A DNA stretch of 33,104 nucleotides from Salinicola peritrichatus (GTDB lineage Bacteria > Pseudomonadota > Gammaproteobacteria > Pseudomonadales > Halomonadaceae): positions 21,614-54,717 of the forward strand of contig NZ_PZJU01000043.1 in the NCBI RefSeq assembly GCF_003206715.1. Reading direction: 5' to 3'. A model generated the notes under the pieces. That model had not been told where the DNA came from. It saw nothing but the letters and a program-made list of their open reading frames with translations, and did no database searches. This document shows positions 20,196 through 33,104 of the stretch, piece by piece (position 1 is the first letter of the stretch; every line of letters begins with the position of its first letter). The position numbers and the translations under genes were made by a program.

Positions 20196-21728
20196 TCAAT
20201 CCTCGGTGTACAGGCGTGGGCGGGGCAGCAACTTCTCGAAGGCAGCATCATCGACGAAGCGCTGCGCGGCGTCGAGATCGGGGGCGAAATAGCGGTCTCG
20301 TTCATAACGTGCCACGTCGCGGCGGATCAGCGTCAGCGCTTCTTCGAGGGCCGGCGAGGTGGCCATGGGGCGATGGAACTCGATGCCCTGGGCCGCCGCC
20401 AGCAGCTCGATGGCGACCACCGCGCTGGAATTGAACGCCATGTCGGCCAGCCGGCGGGCCGCGAAGGTCGCCATCGAGACGTGGTCCTCCTGGTTGGCGG
20501 AGGTCGGCAGGCTATCCACCGAAGCCGGGTGCGCCAGGGTCTTGTTCTCCGAGGCCAGTGCCGCCGCGCTGACCTGGGCGATCATGAAGCCGGAGTTGAG
20601 TCCACTGTCCTCGACCAGGAAGGCCGGCAACCCCGATAGCGCCGGGTCGACGAGTTGTGCGATGCGCCGCTCCGAGAGCGCGCCGATCTCCGCGATCACC
20701 AGCGCCAGCACATCGGCGGCCATGGCGACCGGCTCGGCATGGAAGTTGCCGCCGGAAAGCACGTCGCCGTTGTCGAAGACCAACGGATTGTCGGAGACCG
20801 CGTTGGCCTCGCGCAGGAACACCCCGGCGGCGAAGCGCAGGTGATCCAGGCAGGCGCCCATCACCTGCGGCTGGCAGCGCAGCGAATAGGGGTCCTGCAC
20901 CCGCGGGCAGTCGCGGTGCGATTCGCGGATCCGGCTGCCGGCGAGCAGTTCGCGGTAGTAGGCCGCCACGTCACGCTGACCGGGATGGCCGCGAACCGCC
21001 TGGATGCGTTCGTCGAACGGGGTATCCGAGCCCTTCAGGGCGTCCACCGTCAGGCTTCCCGCGACCACCGCGGCGGTGAACAGCTTCTCGGTGGCGAACA
21101 GCCCGCGCAGCGCCAGCGCGGTGGACACCTGGGTGCCGTTGATCAGCGCCAGGCCCTCCTTGGGCGCCAGCGTCAGCGGCGCGAGGCCGGCCAGCGCGAG
21201 CCCTTCGGTGGCCGGCATCTCGCGCCCCTGGTGGCGCATGCGGCCCTCGCCGAGCAGCGTCGCCGACAGATGCGCCAGCGGCGCCAGATCTCCCGAGGCG
21301 CCCACCGAACCCTTGGCCGGAATGCACGGGTAGACCCGCGCGTTGTACAGAGCCAGCAGCGCTTCGATGATCGTCCAGCGCACCCCCGAGTGGCCGCGCG
21401 CCAGCGAGGTCGCCTTGAGCGCCAGGATCAGCCCCACCGTGGCGTCATCCAGTGCGTCGCCGACCCCGGTGCTGTGCGACAGCACCAGATTGCGCTGCAG
21501 TTCGGTCAGCGAGGCGCGCGGTATCGAGGTCTGGGCGAGCACGCCGAAGCCGGTATTGATGCCGTAGACGGTACGTCCGCTGTCCAGGATGGCGCTGACC
21601 GTGGCCTCGGCGTCGTCGACCCGGGCGCGGCTAGCGTCGTCGAGCGTAAGCGTAGGGCTGCGCTCGTAGAGTTCACGCAGCGTGTCGAGTGTCAGATTGC
21701 CCGGAGAGAGCCGCAGCGTTGTTGTCAT
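20196..21728 (-). CDS. hutH: histidine ammonia-lyase
   Basis: A 510-residue enzyme that eliminates ammonia from L-histidine to give trans-urocanate, the first hut step. The MIO-forming tripeptide Ala144-Ser145-Gly146 is present in [14 protein letters not shown]. Other active-site motifs are YGINTGFG (Tyr55), LSHSTGVG (His85), [16 protein letters not shown] and [10 protein letters not shown]. The length is normal. The ATG at 21728 follows AAGGGA; the upstream ATG at 21827 would start within the operator-promoter region. Unusually, it is separated from hutU, hutI and hutG and instead leads an operon with two 2-hydroxyacid dehydrogenases. A perfect HutC-type operator lies 71 bp upstream. Confidence 0.97.
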
Positions 21729-21796
21729 GATCGTTCCCTTACGGGTGCCGGCGATGTCTGCCGCCGTGAAGCAGGTGCGCAAAGGCAGGGTTTTAT

Positions 21797-23681: not shown

Positions 23682-24395
23682 GTGGGACGCCAACCGCCCC
23701 GTTATCAACAGATCAAGCAGTACCTGCTGGAGAACATCCGCACGGGGCATTTTCCGGCCGATCATCAAATCCCGCCGGAGGAGCAACTGGCGGTGACCTT
23801 CGGCGTCAGCCGCATGACCGCCAACAAGGCGATCCGCGATCTGGTGCAGGAGGGCTATCTGGTCCGTCAGTCGGGGATTGGCACTTTCGTCACCGATCGT
23901 CGCTCGGAATCGCCGCTGGTCGAGATCAACAATATCGCCGACGAAGTGCGCCGCCGGGGTCATGGCTACGCCAACCGCGTGCTCTCCTGCGAAGCGATCA
24001 GCGCCGACGACGAGATAGCGCTGCGCATGGGGGTGCGCATCGGCGTGACGCTGTTCCACTCGATCCTCATCCATCTGGAGGACGGCCTGCCGATCCAGCT
24101 CGAGGATCGCTACGTCAATCCGCGCTGGGTACCCGGTTACCTCGAGGCCGATTTCTCGCGCCAGACGCCCAACGAGGTGCTGGTCGCCGCCTGCCCGATC
24201 AGCGACATGGAGCACGTCGTCGAGGCGGTGCTGGCGGACCCCCAGGCCGCTGACTGGCTGGAGGTCGAACCTTCACTTCCCTGCCTGAGCGTGCGCCGGC
24301 GCACCTGGTCGGGCGATCACCTGATCAGCTATGCCCATCTGCTGCATCCCGGCGATCGCTACAAGCTGCGTTCCATGGCCCATTCGGCTACCTAA
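23682..24395 (+). CDS. hutC: HutC-type GntR-family repressor (copy 2)
   Basis: A 237-residue regulator with a GTG start, supported by GAGGAG 6 nt upstream. The GntR winged helix (about residues 5-72) contains EEQLAVTFGVSRMTANKAIRDLV in part, and the UTRA domain follows from about residue 88, including LPIQLEDRYVNPRWVPGY and SDMEHVVEAV. It is the more typical HutC of the two, being next to hutD and facing hutF. Urocanate should be its inducer. Its own operon carries a HutC-type operator, so it is likely autoregulated. It ends 15 bp from the convergent yjiH-like gene. Confidence 0.92.
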   Translation: MGRQPPRYQQIKQYLLENIRTGHFPADHQIPPEEQLAVTFGVSRMTANKAIRDLVQEGYLVRQSGIGTFVTDRRSESPLVEINNIADEVRRRGHGYANRVLSCEAISADDEIALRMGVRIGVTLFHSILIHLEDGLPIQLEDRYVNPRWVPGYLEADFSRQTPNEVLVAACPISDMEHVVEAVLADPQAADWLEVEPSLPCLSVRRRTWSGDHLISYAHLLHPGDRYKLRSMAHSAT

Positions 24396-25777: not shown

Positions 25778-27139
25778 CTAGCCAAGTTCGCGGAACAGCC
25801 GGGTCAGCGCCGCCTGGTTGTTGGCGTCGAGCAGGTGACGGCGCGCCTCGACGACCCAGCGACCGGCGACCATCACATCGCGGATCTGCTGCTTTGAACC
25901 GCCGAACAGCCAGCGTCCCAGACGCGTCTCGTCGCTGGCCGTGGCCAGGTAGGGATCGTCGCCTTCAAGTATCACCAGGTCGGCACGCATGCCCGGGGCG
26001 ATGGCGCCGATCGGTTGCCCGGAGGCCTGGGCGCCGCCGGCCAGTGCGTGACGGTAAAGCCAGTCACCGACCTGGCGGGTGTCGCCGTTCTGCAGACAGT
26101 TGCGCTGCTGACGGACCAGCCGTTGGCCGTATTCGAGCAGGCGCAACTCTTCGACCACGTCGAGCGAGACGTGGCTGTCGGAGCCGATGCCCAGCCGCCC
26201 GCCCCGGGTGGCATAGTCGACAGCAGGAAACAGCCCGTCGCCGAGGTTGGCTTCGGTGGTCGGGCAGAGCCCGATGACCGCTCCGCTGGCGGCAAGATCG
26301 CGTACTTCGCCGGCATCGAGATGGGTGGCGTGGATCAGACACCAGCGCGCATCGACCGCGACGTTGTCCAGCAGCCAGCGCACCGGTCGACACCCCGAAT
26401 AGGCCACGCTGTCCTCGACTTCGCGCTGCTGCTCGGCGACGTGGATATGCCGGGGGCCGGCGGGGTCAGACGCGAGGACTTCGCGGATCTGCTCCGGGGT
26501 CACTGCACGCAGCGAGTGGAAGGCCAGGCCCAGCGCTTGGGTCGGATGGTTGGACAGGCGCGGCGTCAACCGCTCGAGCAGATGCAGAAAGCCCGGCGCG
26601 TCGTGAATGAAGCGGCGCTGTCCGGCATTGGGCGGTTGACCGCCGAAGCCGCCGTGAGCGTAGAGCACCGGCAGCAGGGTCAGACCGATGCCGCTGCGCT
26701 CGGCGGCAGCGCTGATTGCCCAGGCCATCTCCGCGGGGTCGGCGTAGGCGCGGCCGGCCGGGTCGTGATGCAAGTAGTGGAACTCGCTGACCTGGGTGTA
26801 GCCGCCCTTGAGCATCTCGACATAGAGCGCTTGGGCGATGGTCGCTACCTGTTCGGGAGTCAGGGTATCGACAAGGCCGTACATGCGCTCGCGCCAGCTC
26901 CAGAAACTATCCGGGCGCTCGCTGCCGATCTCGGCGAGCCCCGCCATGGCGCGCTGGAAGGCGTGCGAATGCAGGTTGGGCATGCCGGGCAGCGCCGGTC
27001 CGGCCAGGCGTTGGGCATCCCCGGCGCCGCTATCCGGCGAGACCGCTGCGATGAAGCCGGCGTCGTCGACCTCGATCAGCACGTGCCGGGCCCAGCCGTC
27101 GGCTAGCAGGGCATGTTCCGCGAAGAGGCGTTGGGCCAT
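25778..27139 (-). CDS. hutF: formimidoylglutamate deiminase
   Basis: A 453-residue amidohydrolase-superfamily enzyme that converts N-formimidoyl-L-glutamate to N-formyl-L-glutamate plus ammonia, the branch used by Pseudomonas-type hut pathways. Zn-ligand and active-site motifs are MPNLHSHAFQRAM, RHIHVAEQQREVEDS, IHATHLDAGEV and GIGSDSHVSLDV. The length is usual. TAGGAG lies 6-7 nt before the ATG. It is divergent from hutU with a HutC-type operator 24 bp upstream, and it is followed by the yjiH-like gene. Together with hutG it makes the five-step route to glutamate and formate. Confidence 0.96.
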   Translation of the reverse strand: MAQRLFAEHALLADGWARHVLIEVDDAGFIAAVSPDSGAGDAQRLAGPALPGMPNLHSHAFQRAMAGLAEIGSERPDSFWSWRERMYGLVDTLTPEQVATIAQALYVEMLKGGYTQVSEFHYLHHDPAGRAYADPAEMAWAISAAAERSGIGLTLLPVLYAHGGFGGQPPNAGQRRFIHDAPGFLHLLERLTPRLSNHPTQALGLAFHSLRAVTPEQIREVLASDPAGPRHIHVAEQQREVEDSVAYSGCRPVRWLLDNVAVDARWCLIHATHLDAGEVRDLAASGAVIGLCPTTEANLGDGLFPAVDYATRGGRLGIGSDSHVSLDVVEELRLLEYGQRLVRQQRNCLQNGDTRQVGDWLYRHALAGGAQASGQPIGAIAPGMRADLVILEGDDPYLATASDETRLGRWLFGGSKQQIRDVMVAGRWVVEARRHLLDANNQAALTRLFRELG

Positions 27140-27294: not shown

Positions 27295-27321
27295 TTGCAC
27301 GCAGTGCATGGCTGGCATAAT
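27295..27321 (+). promoter_or_regulatory. candidate hutU promoter
   Basis: TTGCAC (27295-27300) and CATAAT (27316-27321) form a weak -35/-10 pair with a short 15-bp spacer. The -10 element touches HutC operator E, which would suit simple repression by occlusion. Confidence 0.35.
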
Positions 27322-27331
27322 GTATATACAT
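27320..27331. promoter_or_regulatory. HutC-type operator E (ATGTATATACAT)
   Basis: A perfect palindrome identical to operator D, 36 bp before the hutU start codon and overlapping the candidate -10 element. Confidence 0.8.
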
Positions 27332-27367
27332 ATCTCAATCCATCCGATACCACTCCCAGGAGCGACC

Positions 27368-29032
<1,665 letters not shown>

Positions 29033-29042
29033 GGAGGCACGT

Positions 29043-30275
29043 ATGGATGTAGACAACCAGCCATTGGCGGGTGACAGCCTGTGGCGCAACCTGCAGGCGG
29101 TGACGATGCGTGGCGGCGGCTACGCGGTGATCGACGAGGCCGCGCTGGTGATCCGCGACGGACATATCGCCTGGATCGGTCCCGAAGCCGAACTGCCCCC
29201 CGTCAAGGTCAGCGAGACCCGCGATCTCGGCGGGCGCTGGCTGACCCCGGGGTTGATCGATTGCCACACTCACCTGGTGTTCGGCGGTGATCGCAGTCGT
29301 GAGTTCGAGCAGCGCCTGGAGGGGGTCAGCTATAGCGAGATCGCACGCCAGGGCGGCGGGATCGTCAGCAGTGTCAGAGCGACCCGGGAAACCGACTTCG
29401 AGACGCTCTACGCGAGTGCCGAAGCACGAGCGCGGGTGTTGCTAGCCGAAGGCGTTACCACGCTCGAGATCAAGTCCGGCTACGGTCTCGATCTCGACAG
29501 CGAAAGGCGCATGCTGCAGGTCGCCCGGGAACTGGGAAAACGCTTGCCCGTCACGGTAAAGACGACTTGCCTGGCCGCCCACGCCCCGCCGCCGGAGTAC
29601 GCCGGTCGCGGCGATGACTACATCGAACGGGTGTGCGAGACGATCCTGCCAACGCTGGCGGGAGAGGGGCTGATCGATGCCGTCGATGGCTTCTGCGAGG
29701 GCATTGCGTTTTCTCCGGTACAGATGCGTCGGGTCTTCGAGACGGCACGCCGGCTCGGCCTGCCGGTCAAGCTGCACGCTGAGCAACTGTCGCGCCTGGG
29801 AGGCTGTGAGCTGGCGGCCAAGTTCGGCGCGCTGTCGGCCGATCATGTCGAGTACGCCAACGGCGACGATGCGAAGGCGATGGCGGCCAGTGGTACCACT
29901 GCCGTGCTGCTGCCCGGTGCGTTTCTGACGCTGCGGGAGACCCAATTGCCGCCGATCGAGGCGTTTCGGGAACATGGCGTCGCCATGGCGCTGGCCAGTG
30001 ATCTCAACCCTGGTACCTCGCCGGTGCTGTCGCTGCGGCTGATGATGAATCTCGCTTGCACGCTGTTCCGCCTGACACCGGAGGAAGCCCTGGCCGGTGT
30101 GACGCTGAATGCGGCCAGGGCGCTCGGCATCGGCGCCAGTCATGGCTCGCTCGAGGTGGGCAAGGTGGCTGACGCGGTTGCCTGGGACGTGACCGGGCCG
30201 GCGGAACTCGCCTACTGGCTGGGCGGCCAGCTACCCAGCATTCGCTTCCACCATGGAGAGACAATCAGCGCATGA
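29043..30275 (+). CDS. hutI: imidazolonepropionase
   Basis: A 410-residue amidohydrolase that opens the imidazolone ring of 4-imidazolone-5-propionate to yield N-formimidoyl-L-glutamate. The metal-binding [12 protein letters not shown], the ring-binding [17 protein letters not shown] and [12 protein letters not shown] motifs are all present and typical. GGAGG precedes the ATG. It lies 10 bp behind hutU, and its stop overlaps the hutG start by 4 bp (ATGA). Confidence 0.97.
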
Positions 30276-31093
30276 GCAGTTTCCAATTGATCCGGGGAAC
30301 GACGCCTTTACTGGTATCGATGCCTCACGCCGGGACTCGCCTGACGCCGCAAGTCGAAGCCGGACTGAGCGAACGTGGACGATCATTGCTCGATACCGAC
30401 TGGCATCTTCCGTGCCTGTACGATTTCCTCGACGCCCTCGGTGTGAGTCGGCTGCAGGCCGAATACTCTCGCTATGTCGTCGATCTGAACCGGTCTCAAG
30501 ACGACAAGCCGCTCTATGCCGGCGCGACCACCGGTCTGTTCCCGGAGATCGATTTCGACGGCGAGCCGCTGTATCGGGCGGGGCATGAGCCTTCAAAAGA
30601 CGCCCGGGAGTGGGCGCTAGAGAACGTATGGCGGCCTTACCACGCTGCTTTGAGCGAGGAGCTCGAGCGTCTTCGCCGGCGTTTTGGCTACGTGGTGCTG
30701 TTCGACGCGCACTCGATTCGGTCGCGGGTGGCGAGGCTGTTCGATGGCCAGTTGCCCGACATCAACCTCGGAACCAATGATGGTGGGAGTTGCGATCCTA
30801 CCTTGAGCGATCGACTCGAGGCGATCTGCGACGCACAGACCGACTACACCTGGGTGACCAACGGGCGGTTCAAGGGCGGCTTCATTACCCGTCACTACGG
30901 AATGCCGCGCGATAATGTCCACGCCGTGCAACTCGAGCTTTCCCAGGCGACCTATATGGAGGAGCCGCGGGAGGCCGATCAGATCGAGGCATCAACGACG
31001 TTTCCCTATCGGGAGGCACATGCCGGACGTGTCAAGCCGGTGCTCGAGCGTCTGCTGCTCGCCTTGACGCAGTGGCGACCGCCACAGTGCTAG
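30272..31093 (+). CDS. hutG: N-formylglutamate deformylase
   Basis: A 273-residue N-formylglutamate amidohydrolase (FGase family) that produces glutamate and formate, the last step after HutF. The family motifs [11 protein letters not shown] near the N-terminus, [11 protein letters not shown] and [10 protein letters not shown] are visible. This is the deformylase type of HutG, not the arginase-like formimidoylglutamase, in agreement with the presence of HutF. It ends the hutUIG operon; a 375-bp control region follows before the second lyase. Confidence 0.95.
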
Positions 31094-31259: not shown

Positions 31260-31277
31260 TATTTGTATATACAAATA
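31260..31277. promoter_or_regulatory. HutC-type operator F (18-bp palindrome)
   Basis: TATTTGTATATACAAATA is a perfect 18-bp palindrome, the longest of the seven operators, with the TGTATATACA core at 31264-31273. It lies 191 bp before the second lyase gene. Confidence 0.8.
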
Positions 31278-31365
31278 GTCTCAAGTATTGGGCTCATTCA
31301 ATGACCTCCATGACCTAGTCACGAGGACAGCTTGATTGCTGTTGCAGCTCCACTGAAAGAGTGAT

Positions 31366-31375
31366 TGTATATACA
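31366..31375. promoter_or_regulatory. HutC-type operator G (TGTATATACA)
   Basis: A perfect core 93 bp before the second lyase start. With operator F it could support looping or cooperative repression. Confidence 0.8.
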
Positions 31376-31468
31376 TAGTGGTCGTGTTGAAGCTCCACCG
31401 CAAAGACAACAACAATCAAATTGCCGGCACCTTTCAGCAGTGAGTGGCCGACATGGAGGTAGCATTAC

Positions 31469-33004
31469 ATGAGTTCCTTTGCATCAGCTCCTTCGTATCG
31501 GCTCCTCCCTGATACGTTGCCACTCGATGTTGACGATGTCGCGGCTGTCGCCTGCGGAAAAGCCTGGTTGACCGTCTCTCCCGAGATCGAGTCTAGACTC
31601 GCGGCGGCGCGTTGGGTCGTCGAACGCAGCGTTGCGGAACAGTTACCCATCTACGGATTGACGACCGGCTTGGGCGCTGGGGTCGATACGACACTGGACG
31701 CCGACGATTTGGTTGCATTCCAGAACCGGGTTCCCCTGGCACGTTCCGTAGCTGTTGGTGACAGTGTTCCGCGCGAAGCCGTCAGAGCGATGATGGTGGC
31801 GAGGGCCTGCGGGTTGGCGGCAGGTGGCAGTGGCGTTTCTTCGATCGTGCTGACCCGGCTGATCGACGCCATCAATGCGGGCTTTCATCCAGTCATCCCT
31901 CGGCACGGCTCGCTGGGGGCGGCGGACCTGGCACAGCTTGCGCAGATGACCCGGGCGCTGATGGGGGATGGCCGAGTGGAATGGCAGGGTCACGTGCTCG
32001 ATGCCGGGGAGGCACTCGCCCGCGCGGGTCTCGTACCCCTGGAGTTGGGCCCCCGGGATGGGCATGCCCTGGTGGCTGCCAACAGCTTCTCGGTTGGCCA
32101 AGCCTGCTTGCGGCTGGCGGATATTGGGCGTTTGCTAGATTGGTCCTGTCTTGCCGCCGCCCTGAACTGCGAAGGTTTCCGCGCCAACACCAATGCCTTC
32201 GATGAAAGGGCCATGGCGGCTCGCCCGGCCTTTGGTCAGCGGCAGGCAGCCTCTCGATTACTCGCTCATCTTCGCGGTGGTGAGCTGATGGCAGAAGGGG
32301 CTGCGAGGAAGCTTCAGGACCCGCTCAGTTATCGTTGCCTGCCGCAGATTCTGGGCGCTGTCATGCACGCGCTCGACGAAGCGCGCGAGGCGACGCGTAT
32401 CGAGCTGGCAAGCGGCGGTGACAACCCGGTCATCCTGGCGGATGAGGCACTGGTGCTACCGAACGGCAACTTCGATACCACAGCCTTTACATTGAGTTGG
32501 GCGCGGCTTGCTCTGGCCATAGCGCAAAGTGCCAATGCCACCGCTCATCGCATCATGAAGCTGATGTCGCCGCACGATTCCGGATTGCCGCGTTTTCTCA
32601 CTCCGCTGGGTCAGAGTCGTACCGGTTTTGCCACTGTGCAGAAGACCGTCTCGATGCTCGAAGCGGAGATTCGTCACTTCGCCGCTCCTATGCCAATGTC
32701 TGCCATCCCCGTCGCTGATGGAGTCGAGGATCATGCCTCACTTGCTCCCAGCACGTTGGCGAACGTCGCGGAAGTCGTCGAGCGCATGCGCTGGCTGGTG
32801 TCGATCGAGTTGGTGGTTTCCGCCCAGGCGGTGGATTTGCGTAGTGCGTCCAATGCCCTCGGTCATGGTACCCGGAAAGCCTTGGCTTTCGTGCGCGAAC
32901 ATGTCGCCGCCCTGCATGAAGACAGACCTCACAACTGTGATTTCGAAACGATCAATCGTTTGATAACAAAACAAATTTCGCCGACGGCTGATCTGGATCC
33001 ATAA
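31469..33004 (+). CDS. MIO-less histidine/aromatic ammonia-lyase homologue
   Basis: A 511-residue protein of the HAL/PAL/TAL fold, with YGLTTGLGAG (Tyr62), LQDPLSYRCLPQ, SGGDNPVIL and VEDHASLAP matching HutH landmarks. The cofactor site is changed: where HutH has G-Ala-Ser-Gly-Asp-Leu, this protein reads GSLGAADLA (Ala151-Ala152-Asp153), one residue shorter and with no serine, so MIO cannot form. HutH's His85 site reads PLARS and its NGT site reads AANSF. The protein may therefore eliminate a better leaving group than ammonia, as ergothionase does with trimethylamine, or be non-catalytic. GGAGGT lies 8 nt before the ATG. Two HutC-type operators lie upstream. A plain second hutH annotation would be misleading. 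Confidence 0.88.
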   Translation: MSSFASAPSYRLLPDTLPLDVDDVAAVACGKAWLTVSPEIESRLAAARWVVERSVAEQLPIYGLTTGLGAGVDTTLDADDLVAFQNRVPLARSVAVGDSVPREAVRAMMVARACGLAAGGSGVSSIVLTRLIDAINAGFHPVIPRHGSLGAADLAQLAQMTRALMGDGRVEWQGHVLDAGEALARAGLVPLELGPRDGHALVAANSFSVGQACLRLADIGRLLDWSCLAAALNCEGFRANTNAFDERAMAARPAFGQRQAASRLLAHLRGGELMAEGAARKLQDPLSYRCLPQILGAVMHALDEAREATRIELASGGDNPVILADEALVLPNGNFDTTAFTLSWARLALAIAQSANATAHRIMKLMSPHDSGLPRFLTPLGQSRTGFATVQKTVSMLEAEIRHFAAPMPMSAIPVADGVEDHASLAPSTLANVAEVVERMRWLVSIELVVSAQAVDLRSASNALGHGTRKALAFVREHVAALHEDRPHNCDFETINRLITKQISPTADLDP

Positions 33005-33048: not shown

Positions 33049-33104
33049 ATGAAAACATGGCGGTCTCAAGTTCCAAGCGCAACGCTATTGAAGGGTGTTC
33101 GGTC
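33049..33104 (+). CDS. start of an unidentified gene, cut by the window end
   Basis: Only 18 codons are visible (MKTWRSQVPSATLLKGVR). A strong AGGAGG ribosome site lies about 6 nt upstream and the lyase stop is 44 bp away, so it is probably co-transcribed with the MIO-less lyase. A basic start running into a mildly hydrophobic stretch could be the beginning of a signal peptide or membrane protein, but the family cannot be named. Confidence 0.6.
   Translation, partial: MKTWRSQVPSATLLKGVR

Follow-up and report, generated by a model that had tools for sequence, protein, structure and literature searches.

MIO, the cofactor formed by cyclisation of Ala-Ser-Gly, is needed for ammonia elimination, and in histidases it activates ammonia, a poor leaving group. 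The locus described here raises the question of which reaction, if any, is left to a histidase-like protein in which this triad is missing. The stretch of Salinicola peritrichatus DNA that was analysed (33,104 nucleotides; hereafter the window) encodes a canonical HutH (20196–21734, minus strand; assigned by hutH model score and alignment), in which the full Ala-Ser-Gly loop starts at residue 142. It also encodes a second lyase of 511 residues (31469–33004, plus strand; characterised by ORF, Pfam, PDB search, alignment, trees and Foldseek), in which GSLGAADLA (residues 147–155; 31907–31933, plus strand, from translation and alignment) replaces the MIO-forming loop.

The loop begins at nucleotide 31907, with 31907–31930 representing the codons of GSLGAADL. 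An earlier note on this DNA had reported the loss of the Ser and a loop one residue short at residues 147–155; re-reading both against the HutH of the window gave the same result. The same note had the His85 and Asn-Gly-Thr sites of HutH as changed. Both sites are indeed replaced, by Arg92 and by Ala203-Ala204-Asn205, respectively, but the histidine in question is His87. A decaying pseudogene or a sequencing error might explain such a loop, and the downstream gene is in fact cut at the contig end by an apparent insertion sequence. The reading frame, however, is intact with no internal stop, and the copy in S. corii L3, 98.8% identical to the window lyase, carries an identical loop. The shortened loop is also found in Rhizobium, Martelella and Mesorhizobium and is common to relatives at 42–62% identity. 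An error in the sequence is unlikely for this reason; we rejected this explanation, and pseudogene decay along with it, as highly improbable.

The window lyase belongs to PF00221 (430 bits, Pfam). With the hutH model TIGR01225 it scored 356.7 bits, below the cut-off of 539.15, compared to 687.2 bits for the HutH of the window. The top match by sequence in the Protein Data Bank was the ergothionase of T. denticola (6s7j/6s7q; E 1.5e-78), ahead of all histidases. Ergothionase is an ergothioneine trimethylamine-lyase, known from T. denticola and Burkholderia sp. HME13. The AlphaFold model of the window lyase had a mean pLDDT of 84.5 and, when submitted to Foldseek, again returned 6s7j in first place (E 1.8e-33). 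The TM-scores of 0.90–0.92 were approximately equal for ergothionase and for histidases including P. putida HAL, and fold similarity was therefore dropped as a discriminator. Overall pairwise identity gives no decision either, being 32.4% with T. denticola ergothionase and 32.9% with P. putida HAL.

Two maximum-likelihood trees placed the window lyase and T. denticola ergothionase in one clade with 100/100 support, comprising 18 of 52 rows in the first tree and 13 of 36 in the second; T. denticola sits on a long branch, which the tree program flagged. The 52-row tree omitted 30 of the 82 rows aligned, mostly further canonical HutH sequences from the family search, together with four PAL-like rows and, besides these, L005, L009, L040 and L056; the 36-row tree is a hand-picked subset additionally without L050, L052 and L053. 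The kinship with ergothionase, which the earlier note had suggested, thus holds in the best PDB match, the first Foldseek rank and both phylogenies run against HutH and ergothionase. Its description of a HutH that had lost MIO in this genome does not hold, the protein belonging instead to an old, separate subfamily. As judged from sequence, the window lyase is an ergothionase-type lyase, not a decayed HutH and not a histidase.

The active site was compared across an alignment of 82 rows, consisting of 21 rows of the ergothionase-like clade, 10 rows of a second MIO-less type, termed B-type and described below (one gene is counted twice among these, as L003 and L005), and 51 canonical-type rows. 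For residue roles and numbering we assume those of P. putida HAL (His83, Asn195, Tyr280). Ala-Ser-Gly is found in none of the 21 clade rows, which show A, E or Q followed by A, G or S in a loop one residue short, while the full loop is present in the 51 canonical-type rows. GSLGAADL aligns gap-free with SSIGEGDI of 6s7j. A Streptomyces relative from outside the alignment (L091) reads GASDL, with the Ser present and the Gly absent.

Three residues of the ergothionase type, Lys392 (in QKT), Leu286 and Asn205, are common to the window lyase and the T. denticola chain, and their equivalents occur in 0 of the 51 canonical-type rows. Within the clade, Lys392 is present in 18 of 21 rows, the exceptions being two Bosea rows (Gln) and S. 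meliloti L081 (Ala); Asn205 is present in 15 of 21. Position 286, the equivalent of HAL Tyr280, is Leu, Ile or Val throughout the clade (21/21), whereas 50 of the 51 canonical-type rows have Tyr, the lone exception being the Y280F mutant chain of P. putida. All ten B-type rows have Leu there, so that in this alignment the MIO loop and Tyr280 are lost together. At position 92 (HAL His83) the clade is divided between Arg (11 of 21 rows) and His (10 of 21); T. denticola ergothionase keeps His and the window lyase has Arg92. As Arg is common to 11 rows, Arg92 was dropped as an argument against ergothioneine.

The two Bosea sequences (L050, L052) are MIO-less clade members without equivalents of both Lys392 and Glu420, and perhaps have a function other than that of the rest of the clade. 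The S. meliloti gene on pSymA (L081:11866–13506), ergothionase-like and annotated hutH, is near LysR genes and a gene annotated as dimethylsulfoniopropionate lyase.

With HutH, the window lyase has in common the fold and the residues Tyr62, Gln283, Arg289 and Glu420; it differs in the absence of equivalents of Ala-Ser-Gly, Tyr280, His83 and Asn195 and in scoring below the HutH model cut-off. Loss of MIO and replacement of the His83 and Asn195 equivalents would be compatible with a relative that has no catalytic activity and serves a regulatory or scaffolding role by binding urocanate or derivatives of histidine, and the earlier note had named a regulatory or binding protein as an alternative. 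The retention of Tyr62, Arg289 and Glu420 in the window lyase disfavours it, as does their conservation within the clade, where Tyr62, Gln283 and Arg289 are found in 21 of 21 rows each and Glu420 in 19 of 21. Moreover, ergothionase demonstrates that the MIO-free fold can catalyse (PMC13405746). We regard a non-catalytic role as very unlikely.

The genes preceding the lyase resemble those of histidine utilization. A hutC-like gene for a GntR-type repressor (23682–24395, plus strand; 42% to Rhizobium hutC, which passes TIGR02018) is followed by a hutF-like formimidoylglutamate deiminase gene (25778–27139, minus strand) and, all on the plus strand, a hutU-like urocanate hydratase gene (27308–29032; 80% to annotated Paracoccus hutU), a hutI-like gene (28965–30275) and a hutG-like gene directly upstream of the lyase (30272–31093). 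The hutF-, hutI- and hutG-like genes were assigned by similarity to their annotated Paracoccus counterparts.

Five copies of TGTATATACA, the core of the HutC operator consensus, were located in the window, where base composition alone predicts about 0.005. The sites are near HutH (21799), between hutF and hutU (27163), at the start of hutU (27321) and, twice, before the lyase (31264 and 31366). The latter two correspond to predicted HutC-type operators TTTGTATATACAAA (31262–31275) and ATTGTATATACATA (31364–31377), both conserved in S. corii (L038, cores 9796 and 9898). A scan with the 14-mer allowing up to three mismatches returned three matches against a mean of 0.16, and at least three were obtained in 0 of 100 shuffles. 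In three Rhizobium plasmids (L054–L056) an operator also lies upstream of the CoA-transferase gene that belongs to the lyase operon, and in the genome G800 one lies at this same gene; Martelella has one site between hutC and the lyase. No operator was detected at the other clade or OCD (see below) loci scanned (L057, L060, L079, L080, L084, L088, Mesorhizobium L039–L041, L117–L120, L122, L123, L082 and L089–L094). The two HutC-type operators described in the earlier note are thus real, and S. corii, Rhizobium and Martelella have such sites as well; as they are missing at most other clade loci scanned, HutC control belongs to a subset.

The adjoining hutI- and hutG-like genes and the HutC-type operators in front would also suit an enzyme that is still a histidase and works without MIO. 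A canonical HutH is already present in the same window, however, the Tyr280 equivalent is replaced in every clade row and the hutH model score falls far below its cut-off. An MIO-free histidase is accordingly about the least probable of the explanations considered.

The window ends at the contig end. Downstream of the lyase, S. corii encodes, in this order, a quaternary-amine binding protein (PF04069, OpuAC), a protein of the OCD/mu-crystallin family (PF02423; L038:12537–13538), a PhnD-like protein (PF12974), a pair of permeases and an ATPase. OCD here denotes an ornithine-cyclodeaminase-like, dehydrogenase-fold protein. The same downstream order is seen in R. johnstonii, Rhizobium NXC14 and R. 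leguminosarum 31B (three plasmids) and in Martelella. In the three Rhizobium plasmids, genes for a YeiH-like exporter, a CoA-transferase, SDR, MaoC and HutC precede the lyase. Relatives at 42–43% identity (Sinorhizobium B11, Rhizobium CC-CFT758, R. acidisoli) have the OCD gene, a betaine-type transporter and two luciferase-like flavin monooxygenases, which in Sinorhizobium B11 are of the NtaA/DmoA kind. Two Rhodobacteraceae plasmids carry LysR, OCD and lyase genes with overlapping OCD and lyase reading frames and no adjoining transporter, and in Paracoccus saliphilus the clade lyase adjoins hutU in a hut cluster that contains OCD and a YeiH-like exporter. A YeiH-like gene accompanies the lyase in the three Rhizobium plasmids, G800, Polaromonas and Paracoccus; the Rhizobium protein passes PF03601 and is below the NCBIfam YeiH cut-off. 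YeiH relatives are sulfite exporters. The PhnD-like protein (L038:13541–14359; L054:15552–16370) has, by eye, no obvious signal peptide and on that ground may be cytosolic and not part of the transporter.

A sample of 398 Pseudomonadota genomes was surveyed for co-occurrence of the lyase with OCD. Ten encode OCD (E ≤ 1e-95) and nine a clade lyase (E ≤ 1e-70), and in eight of the ten OCD genomes a clade lyase lay within about 1.2 kb of OCD. Of 14 places with a clade lyase, eight adjoin OCD and six do not, namely that of the window and five copies at 50–51% identity. In the stretches read around the relatives at about 51% (Mesorhizobium L039–L041 and the G719 copy L120), no OCD was found. Conversely, OCD is accompanied by canonical HutH in G754 (L118, inside a canonical hut operon) and on a Rhodococcus plasmid (L094, where OCD is apparently truncated), and in G572 (L117) and Cupriavidus (L092) no lyase was found in the stretch read around it; these four loci argue against strict OCD–lyase coupling. 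Across plasmid records of Pseudomonadota and Actinomycetota, the OCD-like protein is 65–82% identical, mostly beside clade lyases.

The earlier note had proposed a substrate with a good leaving group, for example a histidine betaine. The PF04069 protein beside the S. corii lyase supports this suggestion, and binding-protein homologues also adjoin the lyase in Rhizobium, Martelella and the relatives at 42–43% identity. The nearest solved relatives of the binding protein are acetylcholine/nicotine sensor precursors and ProX, with the ergothioneine-binding EgtUC ranking after them; with a second binding-protein query, EgtUC was not among the matches at its E-value limit. The binding protein is of a general quaternary-amine type and not clearly EgtU-like. 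This would also agree with an MIO-free elimination of a good leaving group from some other quaternary or activated imidazole or aromatic betaine, not trimethylhistidine, as would the diversity of the clade, in which the two Bosea rows without Lys392 and Glu420 make it probable that functions differ. On the other hand, the HutC operators and the hut genes around several members indicate a product of the urocanate type, and we consider a different betaine improbable, though less so than the explanations dealt with above.

The reading we favour, and consider likely, is that the window lyase is an MIO-independent ergothionase-type trimethylamine lyase acting on a trimethylhistidine, the most likely substrate being ergothioneine sulfonate (with an oxidised sulfur at imidazole C2) or ergothioneine, and hercynine the next. 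For the trimethylhistidine we rely on the betaine-type transporter and the position in the clade; that the product would be urocanate or something close to it is indicated by the HutC operators and hut genes. In the mechanism envisaged, trimethylammonium would leave readily enough to make MIO unnecessary, as in ergothionase; Tyr62 would abstract the beta proton, and Arg289, Glu420 and Lys392 would hold and polarise the substrate. Trimethylamine would depart, leaving a (2-substituted) urocanate.

With less certainty, the OCD-like partner would then reductively displace the C2 sulfur group as sulfite to give urocanate. The step is proposed because an imidazole-2-sulfonate resembles the arrangement on which OCD-fold proteins act, a C=N or C–N bond beside a carboxylate; release of sulfite is suggested by the YeiH-like exporter in the Rhizobium plasmids, G800, Polaromonas and Paracoccus. 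This putative desulfonation is drawn from chemistry and gene context. Urocanate, which is the inducer of HutC, would be passed on to HutU, HutI, HutF and HutG. For the ergothionase-like gene of Burkholderia arboris (L082), the neighbouring gene is HutU-like at 51% identity and no OCD was detected within 12 kb on either side, which fits direct hydration of thiourocanate there.

Against the preferred assignment we count the 32.4% identity to ergothionase, the uninformative TM-scores, Arg92, the failure to find the transporter and OCD genes in the window assembly (see below), the relatives at about 51% identity with no OCD in the stretches read, the occurrence of OCD with canonical HutH or with no lyase found nearby, the sparse operators and a binding protein that is not closest to EgtUC.

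The locus of the window strain itself appears to be truncated. Beyond the lyase stop, the sequence agrees with that of S. corii as far as 33058 apart from a single mismatch, a match that takes in the ATG and some three codons of the betaine-binding protein gene (start of the next gene, 33049–33104, plus strand), and it changes abruptly at 33059. The tail 33059–33104 is found again, one mismatch apart, close to the end of contig C37 of the same assembly (G000:C37:84241–84282) and, by eye, looks like an insertion-sequence end within the first codons of the binding-protein gene. In the window assembly no OCD was found at E ≤ 1e-95 (five of seven candidates scored), and the best match to the binding protein reached just 39%. 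This strain may have an interrupted cassette, and hence an incomplete pathway, or the remainder may lie in an assembly gap. Elsewhere in the assembly (G000:C22:98988–101320, L127), egtD scores above its cut-off with 398 bits, and a reading frame that by eye is EgtB-like lies ahead of it; the strain may therefore make ergothioneine. In two genomes, G003 and G128, egtD is broken.

A second MIO-less lyase, the B-type, is encoded to the left of the window, about 1.4 kb from its first position (G000:C49:18713–20194, L003). Its loop reads GSVGY---LTHMAH and its operon contains a second hutU and hutI, with a second hutC and hutF adjoining. It presumably resembles Pseudomonas HutH1. Like the window lyase it is MIO-less, lies in a hut context and has Leu at the Tyr280 position; unlike it, the B-type has a loop three residues shorter, keeps His83, Asn-Gly-Thr and (Q/R)EDH, lacks the Lys and is accompanied by a BCCT transporter in most loci read. 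Among 18 genomes of the genus, hutU (E ≤ 1e-60) is present in seven, six of which have the B-type lyase and two canonical HutH. The window genome has both, and five (G003, G027, G043, G107, G128) combine hutU and the B-type lyase without canonical HutH. In each of those five, a BCCT gene separates hutU from the B-type lyase; in three other genomes of the family that were read BCCT also precedes the lyase (eight loci in total); beside the copy of the window genome it is absent. The BCCT neighbour suggests that the B-type may be a hercynine lyase.

Fifteen of the 18 genomes encode a further, PAL-like paralogue (38–40% to HutH), which is interrupted by a stop in one case (G134) and has an intact Ala-Ser-Gly in the seven aligned. 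It could in principle act on histidine; genomes that lack hutU have it too, so it is not bound to the hut operon. A B-type lyase is also carried by the Klebsiella pneumoniae plasmid pKPN-065 (L059:5833–7395; loop GSVGY---LIATAH), together with hutU and hutC, genes for a HutD-family protein and a formimidoylglutamate deiminase, and an ABC transporter. In the unrooted trees the window-lyase type (A) and the B-type fall together on one side of a branch (93/91 in the 52-row tree, 90/87 in the 36-row tree), and either a single loss of MIO or two independent ones would be compatible with them.

More tentatively, and as a possibility we ourselves find doubtful, methylated histidines might form a second entry into the hut pathway through two MIO-less lyase types in one genus. 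The A-type, together with OCD as a reductive desulfonase, would convert ergothioneine sulfonate to urocanate, trimethylamine and sulfite, and the B-type beside BCCT would take the place of histidase as a hercynine lyase; the ‘histidine utilization’ operon of the five genomes would then in fact be a histidine-betaine operon.

In comparison with known systems, the window lyase is a variant of the ergothionase kind already known. It resembles the T. denticola enzyme in the PF00221 fold, the absence of MIO, the loop one residue short, the residues Lys392, Leu286, Asn205 and Glu420 and the common 100/100 clade, and differs from it in an overall identity of 32%, Arg92 in place of His, the OCD-like and PhnD-like proteins in the cassette of its relatives and the HutC operators. 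Agrobacterium radiobacter reportedly possesses a catabolic pathway for ergothioneine sulfonate. The cassette of the Rhizobium relatives, with lyase, OCD and YeiH-like exporter, might conceivably be the same pathway.

Among the best 50 plasmid records listed, 29 are annotated hutH or histidine ammonia-lyase and the other 21 are without annotation there; the plasmid clade members that were aligned do not have the residues for the histidine ammonia-lyase reaction. A 2026 paper reports ergothionase in few genera and notes that divergent homologues were left unaccounted for (PMC13405746); the lyase cassette would be such a divergent ergothionase group. If the assignment as a trimethylamine lyase is true, members annotated as ‘HutH’ would be trimethylamine-releasing enzymes linking the turnover of ergothioneine or histidine betaine to the hut pathway in Rhizobium, Salinicola and others, with the conserved OCD-like partner as a candidate for an unusual form of sulfur removal.
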